This document shows positions 1 through 5,599 of a DNA stretch of 42,108 bases, piece after piece. Position 1 is the first letter of the stretch. Every line of letters starts with the position of its first letter. Below the pieces are notes generated by a model, which had not been told where the DNA came from, ran no database searches, and saw only the letters and a program-made list of their open reading frames with translations. Where the stretch lies: the NCBI GenBank assembly GCA_021298235.1, contig JAJTDX010000039.1, positions 1-42,108 on the forward strand. Reading direction: 5' to 3'. Position numbers and translations under genes: made by a program. The stretch comes from Cryomorphaceae bacterium. Its GTDB lineage: Bacteria > Bacteroidota > Bacteroidia > Flavobacteriales > Crocinitomicaceae.

Positions 1-816
1 GGGGTTTTCCCTAATCCCAATCTTAAGCCTGAGAGCAGCTGGAATGCGGAGGTGGGTGTAAAACAAGGTTTGAAGTTCGGTAAGCTGTATGGATATCTTG
101 ACCTCGCAGGATTTTGGCAAGAGTATCAAAATACAATTGAATATATGTTTGGAGTGTGGCAACCTTTGACAACTCCACAAGCTTTAGGTTCGAGTGCAGG
201 ATTTATGTTCTTGAATACTGGTCAGTCACGAGTTCTTGGCATCGATGCCTCGTTTACAGGGACAGCAAAATTGAGTAAGAAAGCAGAATTGGTTTTTATT
301 ACTGGATATAATTACATAGTTCCCAAAACTTTAACTCCGGATTATGTTTATGCGGTCGATTCGCTACAACGGCTATTCAGCTACAGTACTACTTCGTTGG
401 ATCCATCAAACCAAATTTTAAAATATAGATTTCTTCACAATGTCAAGGCGGATGCTGAATTGAACATTGGCGGCGTTCTCGGAATTGGGGTGAGTGCAAA
501 ATATTTTAGTAAGATCGTGAATATGGATGCCATTGTTGAAGACTTCGAAAATCTGACAAACGATGTTGATGTCCTGCAGAATATCCGGTACATGGATTAT
601 TTTAATTCACATCGTTTTGGAAACTGGATTTTTGATGCTCGATTGTCTTGTCAGGTTGCTGCCAATCACAAAATTGCCATTATCGGTGCTAATATCTTGA
701 ATCGAAGTTATTCGCTCCGTCCTTTGAAGATTGAGCCACCAAGGACAATAATGGTACAATATACATACAAGCTGGAGAAACAAAAGAAAAAGACGCACGT
801 CGCCCCGAATTTCTAA
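1..816 (+). CDS. TonB-dependent receptor, C-terminal part (5' end outside window)
   Basis: This is the last 271 codons of an outer-membrane TonB-dependent receptor. The frame is open from base 1, so a GTG at 52 is not the true start. The first residues contain FPNPNLKPESSW, the NPNLKPE motif typical of the C-terminal barrel. The rest alternates aromatic and polar strands, and the end (EPPRTIMVQYTYKL) resembles the last strand of Bacteroidota receptors. The plug and TonB box are not in the window. The stop lies 20 nt before a cobalamin riboswitch and the next gene is BtuG-like, so a corrinoid cargo (BtuB-like role) is plausible. That rests on context only; siderophore or other cargo is not excluded. 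Confidence 0.85.
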   Translation, partial: GVFPNPNLKPESSWNAEVGVKQGLKFGKLYGYLDLAGFWQEYQNTIEYMFGVWQPLTTPQALGSSAGFMFLNTGQSRVLGIDASFTGTAKLSKKAELVFITGYNYIVPKTLTPDYVYAVDSLQRLFSYSTTSLDPSNQILKYRFLHNVKADAELNIGGVLGIGVSAKYFSKIVNMDAIVEDFENLTNDVDVLQNIRYMDYFNSHRFGNWIFDARLSCQVAANHKIAIIGANILNRSYSLRPLKIEPPRTIMVQYTYKLEKQKKKTHVAPNF

Positions 817-836
817 ATAATGAGTAAATTCGTACC

Positions 837-992
837 GTCTTTGGTGCCACATCGTGGATTAAAAAGGAATCCGGTGAAAGTCCGGAACTGTATCTGCAGC
901 TGTAACTGTCGCAAAGATCTCCCAAAAATGTCACTGTCCGTAGGATGGGAAGACTGGGAAGATTGACAGAAGTCAGAATACTTGCCTAAGAC
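837..992 (+). promoter_or_regulatory. Cobalamin (B12) riboswitch
   Basis: The leader carries the conserved B12-riboswitch blocks in order: GGTGCC near 843, AATCCGGTGAAAGTCCGGAA at 868-887, GCAGCTGTAACTG around 896-908, TCACTGTCC at 931-939, GATGGGAAGAC at 944-954 and GAAGTCAGAATAC at 969-981. GTCTT at 837-841 can pair with AAGAC at 988-992 as the closing P1 stem. It sits between the receptor stop and the BtuG-like gene at 1101, and an intrinsic terminator follows immediately. In this class ligand binding normally lowers expression of the downstream transport gene. Confidence 0.9.
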
Positions 993-1019
993 ATTTTGAG
1001 AAGACTTCAGATTAAAGTC

Positions 1020-1063
1020 GGACTCGATGTACACAACTTTAATGTGTGCCAGTCCTCTTTTTT
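1020..1063 (+). terminator. Riboswitch-associated intrinsic terminator
   Basis: GGACT (1020-1024) pairs with AGTCC (1051-1055), and ACACA (1031-1035) with TGTGT (1043-1047), forming an interrupted hairpin followed by TCTTTTTT (1056-1063). It lies 28 nt after the aptamer and 38 nt before the gene start, where an expression platform belongs. A competing hairpin, GACTT 1003-1007 with AAGTC 1015-1019, abuts it, so an alternative fold is possible. Confidence 0.6.
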
Positions 1064-1100
1064 CATCTTCTTGTTTATTTAACCGTTTAAAAACAACAGT

Positions 1101-2381
1101 ATGAAAAGTGTATTAGTTTGCCTAAGTTTTATCTGCGTTTCAATTGTAAGTGCTCAAAACTATTTGAATCAGGTAGTGATTATTAATGAAGGATATTTCG
1201 ATTATTCGACTTCCACTATTGTCGAGCCTGTCTCTGTGGGAGTTTACAATCCTCAAACATCAACATATTCTGAAGTGAATACAATTACCGGAATGCGGTT
1301 TGCCTCAGATGCAATCATTGCAGGGGATGAATATTTTGTTGCTGCGGACCAGAAAATCCTTAAGTATGATCTTAATACGCACGCTTTGCTTGCTGAAACG
1401 ACCTATCCCGGTGTTCGTAATCTTGCGTTCGTGAATGGTAAAATTGTCGCGTCAAGAGGTGAGTATTTAACAACCTACGATTCTTATTTACATGTTTTCG
1501 ATGCTGCAGATTTATCTTCCGTAATGGCATTCAACACCACTGTTGGCCCGCAATGGGCAACTCAGAATCTTATTGTCGATGGAAACTATGTCTATGTCGC
1601 TGTAAACAATGGTTACGAGTGGGGAAATGAAAAGGGGATCATCGGACGTTTGGACATGACTACGCTCACGTATGGAAATGAGATCGATCTTGGTCCTGAT
1701 GGAAAGAACCCTGATAACCTCGTCAAGCTCAACGGCTTTCTCTATACGGTGAATAATAAGGACTGGTCAGGATCTTCTATTTCAAAAGTGGCTCTGGATG
1801 GAAGTTTGAATCAAACAGTAAATATTGCCTCTGCGAGCACTGGTTGTGGAACATCAGCATTGCGTGACAGCAAAATGGTCTACCAGATTTCAATGGAGTC
1901 GGTATTGAATGAGTTTGATGTTAGCGGAATGAACAATGTTGGTCCTTTGGCAGGATTTGACCAAAATTATTACGAGTTGGCACAAGAACCTGTTAGTGGA
2001 CACATGTATACAAGCGTTACTGACTTTTTCTCTTCAGGTGAAGTCAGAGTGTATGATGGAAATACATTGTTATCGTCATTTGCCGTTGGAGTGTCACCTG
2101 GAACGATTCTCTTTGATGTCAGGGCTCTATCCTCAGTGATTGAAAATGAAGGAAATAAAGTGTCTGTCTACCCTAATCCGGCTACGGATCAACTTCATGT
2201 GGATTTTGCAAGCTCTGCTAGTGTTGAGCTTTGTGATGCAGCGGGTCGTGCAGTACTTTCACAAAAAGCTGAGAACGATCACCTCACATTTGACCTGAGT
2301 AATTTGCCTTCGGGATATTACTTATGCAAGATTACAAATTCGAGCGGGGTGATGTTAACCCACCAGTTTTCAAAATTGTAG
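1101..2381 (+). CDS. BtuG-like secreted beta-propeller with T9SS sorting domain
   Basis: The 426-residue protein has a signal peptide (about residues 1-18, ending VSAQ), then a YncE/DUF5074-like propeller to about residue 345 with repeated blades of the type YDLNTHAL, VDGNYVYVAVNN and GEVRVYDGN. The end, about 353-426, starts VSVYPNPATDQLHVDF and has LPSGYYLCKI, which marks a type-A T9SS C-terminal sorting domain. Known BtuG proteins of Bacteroides are surface lipoprotein propellers that bind cobalamin with extreme affinity and cap BtuB. Here the lipobox is absent and a T9SS tail replaces it. The cobalamin riboswitch directly upstream supports a role in B12 capture. B12 binding itself is inferred; the fold could serve another corrinoid or a different ligand. 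Confidence 0.8.
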   Translation: MKSVLVCLSFICVSIVSAQNYLNQVVIINEGYFDYSTSTIVEPVSVGVYNPQTSTYSEVNTITGMRFASDAIIAGDEYFVAADQKILKYDLNTHALLAETTYPGVRNLAFVNGKIVASRGEYLTTYDSYLHVFDAADLSSVMAFNTTVGPQWATQNLIVDGNYVYVAVNNGYEWGNEKGIIGRLDMTTLTYGNEIDLGPDGKNPDNLVKLNGFLYTVNNKDWSGSSISKVALDGSLNQTVNIASASTGCGTSALRDSKMVYQISMESVLNEFDVSGMNNVGPLAGFDQNYYELAQEPVSGHMYTSVTDFFSSGEVRVYDGNTLLSSFAVGVSPGTILFDVRALSSVIENEGNKVSVYPNPATDQLHVDFASSASVELCDAAGRAVLSQKAENDHLTFDLSNLPSGYYLCKITNSSGVMLTHQFSKL

Positions 2382-2387
2382 AAAATG

Positions 2388-2411
2388 ATCCCGGACTTAC
2401 CGGGATTTTTT
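2388..2411 (+). terminator. Intrinsic terminator after BtuG-like gene
   Basis: A perfect 7-bp stem, ATCCCGG (2388-2394) with CCGGGAT (2400-2406), has a 5-nt loop and runs into a T tract (2406-2411) 7 nt after the stop codon. It ends the B12-regulated unit and separates it from the methyltransferase. Confidence 0.85.
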
Positions 2412-2422
2412 ATTTTTAAGGA

Positions 2423-3004
2423 ATGGCAAATGAGCTCAGCTCCGAATATTGGCAAAAGCGCTACGTGGAAGGTCAAACAGGCTGGGATGTGGGGACCGTT
2501 TCTACACCCTTGAAATCTTACATTGATCAATTAACGGATACACAAATAAAAATTCTCATACCCGGATGCGGATTTGGACACGAGGGGAAATATCTCTACG
2601 AAAAAGGCTTCAGGAATGTGTACCTTCTGGATTATTCTGAACATCCGATCAGTTACTTACGTTCAGTTCTAACAGAATTAGATGAGACACATTTCATGGT
2701 TGAAGATTTTTTCAGTCATGTGGGAAGATATGATCTGATTCTTGAGCAAACTATGTTTTGTGCGATTGATCCATCCCTCCGTACAGCATATGTAGAAAAA
2801 GTTTATGATTTACTGAATACTGGAGGAAAACTGGCAGGAGTTTTATTTAATAAGCAATTTGAAGGTGGACCTCCCTTTGGCGGTTCTGCGCAGGAATATA
2901 AAACACTTTTTTCTATGCACTTTTCCAATGTTTCTATTCAGCCTTGTTACAATTCGATTGAACCGCGCTTGGGAAACGAGGTATTTATTCAAGCGATTAA
3001 ATGA
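2423..3004 (+). CDS. SAM-dependent methyltransferase, TPMT (thiopurine S-methyltransferase) family
   Basis: This 193-residue cytoplasmic Rossmann methyltransferase has the family markers QTGWD (about residues 18-22), the SAM-binding loop ILIPGCGFGHE, the acidic turn LLDYSEHP, the EQTMFCAIDPSLR segment, LLNTGGKLAGVLF and GPPFGGSAQEY. Bacterial members methylate thiol or chalcogen compounds; the physiological substrate here cannot be read from sequence. Length matches the family. The ATG is 41 nt after the preceding stop, beyond a terminator. The next gene begins 3 nt after this stop, so the two are probably co-transcribed. Confidence 0.85.
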   Translation: MANELSSEYWQKRYVEGQTGWDVGTVSTPLKSYIDQLTDTQIKILIPGCGFGHEGKYLYEKGFRNVYLLDYSEHPISYLRSVLTELDETHFMVEDFFSHVGRYDLILEQTMFCAIDPSLRTAYVEKVYDLLNTGGKLAGVLFNKQFEGGPPFGGSAQEYKTLFSMHFSNVSIQPCYNSIEPRLGNEVFIQAIK

Positions 3005-3007
3005 TGT

Positions 3008-5599
3008 ATGAAAAAGAGTGCTGTTTTCTTTTTCGTGATGTGTGTTTGTGGTACGTTTTTCGGACAGAAAAAAGTAGATAACAGATATGCCTTCGTTGAG
3101 CATGGTTTAGATGCTTTCGGTTTTTCGTCTCCCGAAACTGATTTTCCTTCTTTATTCGATACACTCTATACCAAACAAGGTCGAACATTGATTTTGTCTC
3201 AAAAATCAGTGGCGCCAAATACGCAATCCACCGTGCTTTTTCGGGTGCGATCTAAAATTTCTAAAGAAAAAAAAGTATTTAAGTTCGAGGAATCTATCTC
3301 GAAAAGTCAACTCGACTATTCTATATTAAACGATTCCACGCTTCTGGTATACCTAAAGCCTTCCAATAAATCGTATACAGTGGATGCTTTGTCGGGTGCT
3401 TTAATGATTGGTAAATTGAAGGTAAATGTTCTGCAATATCAAGAAGAGAAGCTTGTCATTGTGCCGTTGGTTAAGACCAATTTAAATAAAGATACGCTTG
3501 GTGCTGTTGTCAATAAAATTTTCAAACAGGCTTGTCTCCAGTTGAATATTGATGTACAACCCTTGTTCAATGAATTGTTGGAAAACATGGCCAATCCCTT
3601 GTCAAAGGAACAGTATACTGATCAGATGAAAGCCTTGCGTGATGCCTATTTTGAAGCACATCCTCAAGCGAGCAAAAAAGTGTTTTATATCTTTTTGACA
3701 CCGCCATTCATGAATGGAATTAAAAAAGGGTTTTCAGTAAACGGAAAAGCGCTTGCCTTTATTCCCAGTGACACAGGAAAAGTGTTTTATCGAAATTTAA
3801 CTCAACTTTTGGCGAGGACCATTGGTTACCTTGAACCGACGACGTTAAAGAATAACTTGATGACAGGTGAGGCAGGAGTGCACCTTGGGTTTCAACAATG
3901 GGAGCAGCTGAGACACAATTCTCATTCCTATTCCTATTATGATAATTACGAGGATGTAAAGACAAACAATGGAAGTGTTGCGTTTTATTTTTGGAAAGAA
4001 AATCGGAATGGCGAAATACTGCTTGAGGATGGAAGCGTATTAGAAGCGATATATCGACCGTTCAAGAAAAATGAAATCTATTATCATCTGAACATAGATG
4101 AGTTGTTATTCTATACACTAGTCGCATGGAGGGGATTTGCTTTATGTACGTGGCACGTTCTTTCGATACTCTTAATTTTCCCAACATTGCTTATTACCAG
4201 ACGTATTATTCTTAAGTGGATAATCCCAAAAGTGGAGAAGCCGTCTTTCTGGAAAATTGCCTCTGGTTGGATGGTTTTAATACTTACTGTTTGTTTGAAC
4301 TACACGGCATTCGGCTCGATTGACAAAGGGCTCAGTCAATTTGAAGTTAAATCAGGAGTATTGAAAGAATTAACGCAGCAGGACATTGCCAAGTTCAGCT
4401 CGTTTGTTTCACGGGGTGAAACTTTCAGCAAACGCTCCAGCAAAAGACAACTTTCTCAGGTTTTTTATCTGAAAAATGGCAATTGGTATCTGAAGAAGCG
4501 TAAAAGAGTGCTTTATTTTGATGCAGTGTTAAAAGGGGATAGTGTAATTTCATTAAAACACACGAGGGACAGTGATCTGCTAGAGTTGAAAAAAGTCCAG
4601 AAAAAAGTAACAAGTCACTACATTGTGGTAACATACCGAGATGAGGCAGGTACGTTCATTGAACAAAAAGTGTTCAATCATCCGGGAGTTGAACTGACGG
4701 ACAAAATACAGTTGCCTGACCCTCCTAAACGTATATTGGTCTTCATAAATGGTTACAGACCAGTGACATCTGGACATGATTTTGAGAGTTTCTTTTCTGA
4801 TTTGGAGAAAAAAGGAATTGAATCCCCCAATTCCGGCAACTTGATTTATTCAAACGATCGTTATGAATATTGGAACAGATGGAATAAAATAGACAGCCGA
4901 TTCAAAAGCCGTATCAATCCCAGCGATACCTATTATGCGGATGGACATTTTTCAGTTGAAACGAGCAATTTTGGCAGTATATTGAATTTCACTACAGTGG
5001 CTACGGTGTATCCCAAACGTTGTCCGAACCCCAAAAAACACACATGTTATCATATTAAAATGCTGAACAATAGTCCCCTGGGGAATCAATACACCTACAC
5101 GTTCGACCTTTTAAAAAATTCTTTTAATCGCAAAGGATTCAAATTAAGAGTGAAAAATGGAAAAATTGCAGGAAGGAACCTTCTCCAGGCATTGAATGAA
5201 TTTCCAAATGGGTCAACAAATGACACTATTTTTTTGGTAGCACACAGTATGGGTTTTGCTTATTCCTTGGGAATGATTCAAGAATTGCGCGAGAAAATAA
5301 ACTTTGGTGGATTTTATATTATTGCCCCTGAGAATGCCTCATGTGGTAGGGTAACTCCGTCTGAATGGCAGGAAATCTGGCACTATGGAGTAAATTTTGA
5401 TCCCGGAAAGGAGGATCCTCCGTGTCTGCAGGATGGGATAGCGCCCCAATATCCAATTAAGGGACTCACTCAGTATAGAGCTTTTTTTCCGAAAGACTTG
5501 TACCGAAAAAAAGGATTTTACATGTCACATTTCGTAGGAAATTATACATGGATTTTGGATATTCCTAAAGGTCAAAAGGGGTACATACGGCAACGTTAA
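3008..5599 (+). CDS. Exported modular protein: degenerate metallopeptidase-like domain, two TM helices, alpha/beta-hydrolase-like C-terminus
   Basis: I do not recognise a named family for the whole 863 residues. Residues 1-19 look like a signal peptide (ending FFGQ). Around 262-302 the stretch TQLLARTIGYLEP then NNLMTGEAGVHLGFQQWEQL reads like the HExxHxxG helix and NNLMDY...QWE block of large Bacteroidota metallopeptidase modules, but the zinc histidines and glutamate are gone. Two hydrophobic helices follow at about 366-396 and 412-435. The C-terminal third resembles an alpha/beta hydrolase: ILVFINGYRP, DTYYADGHFSV, and a nucleophile elbow VAHSMG with Ser747; His841 in YMSHF is a candidate catalytic histidine. 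The layout recalls secreted toxin or effector-type proteins, but no immunity gene is evident. Confidence 0.6.
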   Translation: MKKSAVFFFVMCVCGTFFGQKKVDNRYAFVEHGLDAFGFSSPETDFPSLFDTLYTKQGRTLILSQKSVAPNTQSTVLFRVRSKISKEKKVFKFEESISKSQLDYSILNDSTLLVYLKPSNKSYTVDALSGALMIGKLKVNVLQYQEEKLVIVPLVKTNLNKDTLGAVVNKIFKQACLQLNIDVQPLFNELLENMANPLSKEQYTDQMKALRDAYFEAHPQASKKVFYIFLTPPFMNGIKKGFSVNGKALAFIPSDTGKVFYRNLTQLLARTIGYLEPTTLKNNLMTGEAGVHLGFQQWEQLRHNSHSYSYYDNYEDVKTNNGSVAFYFWKENRNGEILLEDGSVLEAIYRPFKKNEIYYHLNIDELLFYTLVAWRGFALCTWHVLSILLIFPTLLITRRIILKWIIPKVEKPSFWKIASGWMVLILTVCLNYTAFGSIDKGLSQFEVKSGVLKELTQQDIAKFSSFVSRGETFSKRSSKRQLSQVFYLKNGNWYLKKRKRVLYFDAVLKGDSVISLKHTRDSDLLELKKVQKKVTSHYIVVTYRDEAGTFIEQKVFNHPGVELTDKIQLPDPPKRILVFINGYRPVTSGHDFESFFSDLEKKGIESPNSGNLIYSNDRYEYWNRWNKIDSRFKSRINPSDTYYADGHFSVETSNFGSILNFTTVATVYPKRCPNPKKHTCYHIKMLNNSPLGNQYTYTFDLLKNSFNRKGFKLRVKNGKIAGRNLLQALNEFPNGSTNDTIFLVAHSMGFAYSLGMIQELREKINFGGFYIIAPENASCGRVTPSEWQEIWHYGVNFDPGKEDPPCLQDGIAPQYPIKGLTQYRAFFPKDLYRKKGFYMSHFVGNYTWILDIPKGQKGYIRQR

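Follow-up and report, generated by a model that had tools for sequence, protein, structure and literature searches.

A cobalamin riboswitch-linked, BtuG-like propeller with a type IX sorting tail in a group of Flavobacteriales

Known corrinoid-capture proteins and the propeller locus

In Bacteroides, BtuG forms a lipid-anchored lid on the receptor BtuB, and the pocket of BtuG2 is narrowed by Trp194, Trp272 and Tyr316 (PMC10404256). Of two similar proteins of B. thetaiotaomicron, BtuK1 bound cobalamin and BtuK2 did not (PMC12751083), and the DUF4465 family, built on a jelly-roll domain, includes B12 binders (PMC13398666). A cobalamin riboswitch precedes a TonB-dependent transporter in Flavobacterium psychrophilum (PMC9723704), and in Flavobacterium johnsoniae the type A tails of the type IX secretion system (T9SS) are concluded to be compatible with static anchoring as well as with release (PMC12618676). 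A search of open-access papers by title and start of abstract, with subscription papers outside its reach, returned no T9SS-tailed BtuG and no riboswitch-linked propeller; PMC12578637 cites the BtuG paper.

The locus described here lies in a 42,108-nucleotide stretch of a Cryomorphaceae bacterium (contig JAJTDX010000039.1, assembly GCA_021298235.1), which we call the window and of which the relevant features are collected in Table 1. The first gene after its cobalamin riboswitch (1101-2381, forward strand) encodes a protein of 426 residues. Like BtuG (PDB 8bmy, 8blw, 8okv, 3dsm), its best structural match, this protein has an acidic propeller, stands behind a B12 riboswitch and is meant for the outside of the cell; unlike BtuG, it has no lipobox, carries a T9SS tail, belongs to no BtuB operon, lacks two pocket tryptophans and is only 17-19% identical to BtuG in the VIA structure comparison. 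The same comparison finds the fold of the B12 binder BtuK1 similar (PDB 9s6c; PMC12751083). The DUF4465 proteins of Flavobacteriales resemble the window protein in being encoded by the first gene after a cobalamin riboswitch and in carrying a T9SS tail, and differ in having a jelly-roll domain (PMC13398666) and no propeller. We consider it likely that the window holds a single-gene B12 regulon, whose product is a T9SS-exported, BtuG-like propeller that binds corrinoids and replaces the lipid-anchored BtuG.

Table 1. Features of the propeller locus, in window coordinates.
Feature	Position	Strand	Basis
C-terminal part of a TonB-dependent receptor	1..816	+	PF00593; upstream of the riboswitch
Cobalamin riboswitch aptamer (RF00174)	825..1003	+	cmscan 99.5 bits (gathering threshold 31.5), E 7.7e-24; full length, model positions 1-189
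Expression platform, hairpin then T run	1004..1066	+	MFE -17.2 kcal/mol, z -3.41
Signal peptide, residues 1-18, without lipobox	1101..1154	+	judged by eye
BtuG-like beta-propeller, about residues 19-342	1155..2126	+	AF2 model, VIA, hhalign
T9SS type A C-terminal sorting domain, residues 356-426	2166..2378	+	PF18962 and TIGR04183 above cut-off
Intrinsic terminator-like site after the propeller gene	2387..2417	+	8-pair stem with 5 G-C pairs, then TTTTATTTTT

Riboswitch control, fold and export signals

An earlier, sequence-only reading of this DNA had recognised a cobalamin aptamer and placed the propeller under B12 control. The first claim was confirmed and the second is supported: the Rfam covariance model matches the aptamer at full length and far above its gathering threshold (Table 1), and in 71 of the 73 genomes that carry the family an aptamer ends 91-151 nt upstream of the matched propeller start, on the same strand. 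Contig ends interrupt the arrangement in the other two, one of which (G070) has the riboswitch followed on the same contig by an N-terminal piece of the propeller gene, while the propeller locus of the other (G020) has just 187 nt upstream. Each of the 73 genomes yields exactly one RF00174 match, in scans that, like those of the 399-genome draw discussed below, used stricter filters by which weak matches can be lost, and the exported propeller is the sole gene seen under B12 control in the window's group. The expression platform is a probable transcription attenuator. By a custom script, 67 of 72 leaders have a terminator-like hairpin and T run behind the aptamer, compared with 64 of 360 mononucleotide shuffles; a separate scan for consensus terminators called no site at this platform.

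The terminator-like site behind the propeller gene suggests a unit of one gene; the region holds four such sites, this one among them, against 1.2 (sd 1.1) in shuffles. With the genes 3' of the propeller differing between loci, riboswitch and propeller most likely form a single-gene unit. Behind the site, the window continues with a thiopurine methyltransferase-like gene (2423-3004, PF05724), whose cluster occurs in 11/75 loci, and a gene for an 863-aa protein (3008-5599) that has no Pfam match above cut-off and whose cluster occurs in 6/75.

At E 1e-5 the propeller family comprises 1274 of 7995 scored candidates, some of which may match through the tail alone; among the matches listed (120 of the 1274), identity is at least 56%. 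The species-genome scan gave 74 loci in the 73 genomes, which are labelled Crocinitomicaceae, Cryomorphaceae, Flavobacteriales, Flavobacteriia or Bacteroidetes MAGs, some of them under the names of cultured species (Lishizhenia, Chitinophaga, Chryseobacterium); viral contigs held no relative of the propeller. The combination of riboswitch, propeller and sorting tail, first read from a single sequence, is thus found throughout these relatives, the riboswitch being linked in the 71 genomes mentioned above and PF18962 matching all 67 complete proteins of the family alignment (A5, window included).

The BtuG-like fold that had been proposed was borne out by structure prediction. The AF2 model of the propeller has a mean pLDDT of 85.1, and its first 11 matches by VIA are all BtuG-type; Foldseek alone placed generic propellers on top and was less informative than VIA. 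Searched against the PDB, the family propeller profile (A1) finds nine BtuG-type chains at E 3e-5 to 2.4e-3, a match limited to profile positions 287-339, the last part of the propeller. Aligned by hhalign with the lipoprotein BtuGs of other Flavobacteriales (alignment A3), it reaches a probability of 98.8 over 291 columns, with an E-value of 6.3e-17 that applies to one comparison. Among Pfam and NCBIfam models, only those of the T9SS tail match the window protein above cut-off (residues 356-418). PF16819 (DUF5074) has no match to it at E 1 and is absent among the families listed for 43 proteins of A1; OLF and LVIVD models match some family members weakly.

The median net charge of the propeller is -19 in 60 proteins, compared with -17 for the stretch of BtuG2 used. 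Tyr316 of BtuG2 has a counterpart in Tyr291, which is invariant in A5, and the positions of Trp194 and Trp272 are taken by Asn169 and Gly248. The pocket comparison does not decide B12 binding, since 13 Flavobacteriales BtuGs in the same alignment also lack both tryptophans. The window protein is BtuG-like and probably works as BtuG does. We do not file it as a BtuG, because the lipoprotein, DUF5074 and BtuB-linkage features of that protein fail here.

The gene layout described after the aptamer (signal peptide, no lipobox, propeller, sorting tail) is correct, as is the claim that a T9SS tail stands in for the lipoprotein signal, a replacement conserved across the lineage. None of 66 complete homologues shows a lipobox-like pattern in its first 35 residues (six of the 66 were read from beyond the start codon). 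The protein combines a signal peptide, seen by eye, with a TIGR04183/PF18962 tail, as a T9SS type A substrate does, and both SprA and PorU, markers of the T9SS machinery, occur in 34/34 related genomes hand-picked from the 73. Because type A tails allow anchoring or release, surface-attached and released fates are both possible for the propeller.

Cobalamin loci across the Flavobacteriales

Cobalamin riboswitches were detected in 299 of 399 genomes drawn from Flavobacteriales. We took 40 riboswitch loci, each from a different genome that lacks a strong member of the propeller family; they were hand-picked, mostly for the strongest riboswitch matches, and are not a random sample, and two genomes (G086 and G078) were chosen in the knowledge of a weak match to A1. 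One locus (L201) is too short to hold a gene, contig ends truncate two (L174, L186), and one (L188) has an apparently broken gene. A common operon encodes, in this order, a DUF4465 protein with a T9SS tail, in many cases a further protein (about 320 aa), a TonB receptor (about 620-670 aa) and a lipoprotein (about 350 aa). The ~320-aa protein of one such operon (L196:4920-5897) has the T9SS tail as its sole Pfam match, and similar proteins recur in many of the other B12 operons sampled. Such lipoproteins were found in 26/40 loci, 25 of the 26 being members of the search profile itself; these 25, aligned as A3, share an invariant cysteine. The A3 profile ranks BtuG chains of the PDB ahead of other propellers (E down to 4.8e-91) and 22 of the 25 carry DUF5074 (PF16819) at E 0.001, so we regard these lipoproteins as BtuGs. 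We call the operon receptor BtuB-like from its position beside BtuG and from a match of the L196 receptor, the one receptor scanned, to TIGR01779 at E 5.5e-20, far below the model's cut-off. Among 39 first genes after the riboswitch, PF18962 matches 25, DUF4465 17 and the TonB plug 9, counts that refer to a pooled set of unrelated proteins and not to a homologous alignment. Other Flavobacteriales, then, retain a lipoprotein BtuG operon whose first gene is often T9SS-tailed (25/39), an observation that is new here.

The window's group presents a different picture in the 34 of 73 genomes tested, all hand-picked and all drafts. Searches for a lipoprotein BtuG hit nothing but the T9SS propeller and partial matches to propellers; DUF4465 was found in 0/34 and CbiC in 0/34 (CbiC likewise in 0/3 operon-bearing control genomes). 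Methionine synthase MetH is present in 33/34 (32 above cut-off, one, G002, in pieces; G008 is without it). The group appears to need B12 and, judged from the one marker gene CbiC, seems unable to make the corrin ring. Since the genomes are drafts, single absences mean little; the overall pattern is still consistent.

A search of the 34 genomes for a BtuB-like receptor elsewhere, using the profile of the Flavobacteriales BtuB-like receptors (A4), gave weak matches only and identified no partner. Eleven genomes have nearly full-length matches at 95-144 bits, the upper figure being the best of all, and three (G002, G013, G046) have none at E 1e-10; control scores of 664-750 bits come from three genomes whose receptors belong to A4. 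TIGR01779 matches receptors in 36/36 genomes, none above cut-off, a result that says little because only 1 of 14 control genomes passes that cut-off. A divergent BtuB is possible in these draft MAGs. Short TonB receptors of 613-680 aa at 16 loci (L153-L168) weakly resemble the BtuB-like profile and are candidates for the missing B12 receptor; no cobalamin riboswitch was found at the 11 of these loci that were scanned, and the genes often beside them resemble trpS and gatC, judged from their N-termini.

Two genomes link these arrangements. In G086 (L197) and G078 (L204) the operon opens with a T9SS-tailed propeller, followed by a BtuB-like receptor and a lipoprotein BtuG, and these first-gene propellers score 57 and 83 bits, respectively, against the family propeller profile. 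Neither genome has DUF4465 anywhere, for which reason the propeller seems to occupy the DUF4465 slot. In a deep, unrooted tree, a branch supported at 100/100 separates these two propellers, the window's group and its divergent relatives from the lipoprotein BtuGs; R_L197, G_L172 and BtuG2 have uncertain placements, clade A does not resolve as one group, and two loci labelled clade B (L151 and L152, the latter with a riboswitch) score closer to clade A.

We also observed a second group of riboswitch-linked, T9SS-tailed propellers (L171:804-2747, L178:797-2755, L190:778-2727, L202:777-2504, L205:5174-6907). These proteins of 575-652 aa score 52-65 bits against the BtuG profile A3 and lie on the same side of the tree as the BtuGs, their exact position having support of 94/77 only. 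They are like the window protein in riboswitch, BtuG-profile match and T9SS tail, and unlike it in length and in a HYR-like domain (tail and HYR-like domain were found in L171 and L202, the two scanned). T9SS tails and BtuG-like propellers either came together on two occasions, or did so a single time and the lipoproteins then lost the tail.

The divergent branch of the window's own family (L109-L150) has a cobalamin riboswitch at 0/42 of the loci fetched, shorter fragments having been left out, and none of its 42 genomes is among the 299 riboswitch positives, a list read by eye. The propeller of this branch appears not to be under cobalamin riboswitch control. By eye, its proteins carry a signal peptide, lack a lipobox and show a D-x-x-GR motif at the C-terminus in place of the PNP tail. 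MetH, complete or fragmented, was found in 7 of the 13 genomes tested and is absent from the other 6.

Competing explanations and biological meaning

We propose the following course of events. Low intracellular B12 would, as expected of this riboswitch class, let transcription past the attenuator, so that the propeller is made. The protein would cross the inner membrane by Sec, lose its signal peptide near A18/Q19 and fold; the type IX system would then carry it over the outer membrane by means of its type A tail, which the sortase PorU would remove. Outside, the acidic propeller would bind corrinoids as BtuG does and deliver these to a receptor of the outer membrane whose gene lies elsewhere, replacing the lipid-anchored BtuG found in related lineages, and the captured B12 would serve at least MetH.

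The earlier reading had suggested as partner the TonB receptor just upstream, and a BtuB-BtuG-like pair would fit its presence directly upstream in the window and at 13 of 74 related loci. We rejected this candidate as poorly conserved and not BtuB-like, and think such a pair very improbable. The receptor precedes the riboswitch, which therefore cannot control it from there, and it was not seen at 61 of all 75 loci, a figure that includes six loci with at most 500 nt upstream that are unable to show it. For a full-length homologue (L001), the eight solved relatives are TonB-linked, heme, colicin I and siderophore receptors, with no BtuB among them. Against A4, 12 of the 14 upstream copies score 26-56 bits and two are unmatched at E 1e-3, and the 271-aa piece in the window has no TIGR01779 match at E 1. 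The receptor probably lies outside the riboswitch-propeller unit; it often follows a surface protein gene and looks like a unit of its own with that gene. At three loci (L015:2073-6704, L065:3338-6689, L074:102-4145) the surface proteins encoded ahead of the receptor match Ig, PKD or, weakly, PCMD models, and some of them carry a T9SS tail. It is scarcely to be expected, either, that the tail goes unused and the propeller stays in the periplasm or is otherwise retained: sorting is a prediction, yet all 67 complete proteins of A5 keep the tail and all 34 genomes of the group that were tested have SprA and PorU.

The most serious alternative, which we nevertheless hold to be unlikely, is that the propeller responds to B12 and sits at the surface, yet serves another ligand or a structural purpose and binds no corrinoid. 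The missing pocket tryptophans, the divergent relatives without a detected riboswitch, the weak OLF and LVIVD matches and the precedent of BtuK2, which resembles BtuK1 and bound no cobalamin (PMC12751083), all speak for it. Against it, no riboswitch target other than the propeller was seen in the 73 genomes, two relatives are encoded in one operon together with a BtuB-like receptor and BtuG, and the closest fold is that of BtuG.

Under the preferred reading, that of an exported corrinoid-binding propeller, these genomes make a BtuG-like catcher tagged for a different export machine where neither the usual lid nor a close BtuB was found, and the finding points to a B12 receptor still to be found. 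A bolder extension, which we put forward as a distinctly doubtful idea, is that lid and receptor have become separate in this aquatic lineage, with the control of B12 uptake reduced to a single riboswitch and a single gene and the released propeller acting as a diffusible corrinoid carrier analogous to haptocorrin, and that T9SS-tailed corrinoid propellers possibly arose twice. If this extension were true, the carrier could be shared or stolen between cells. Many bacteria rely on others for B12. The locus raises the question of whether the captured vitamin is kept on the cell or the catcher is freed as a public good.
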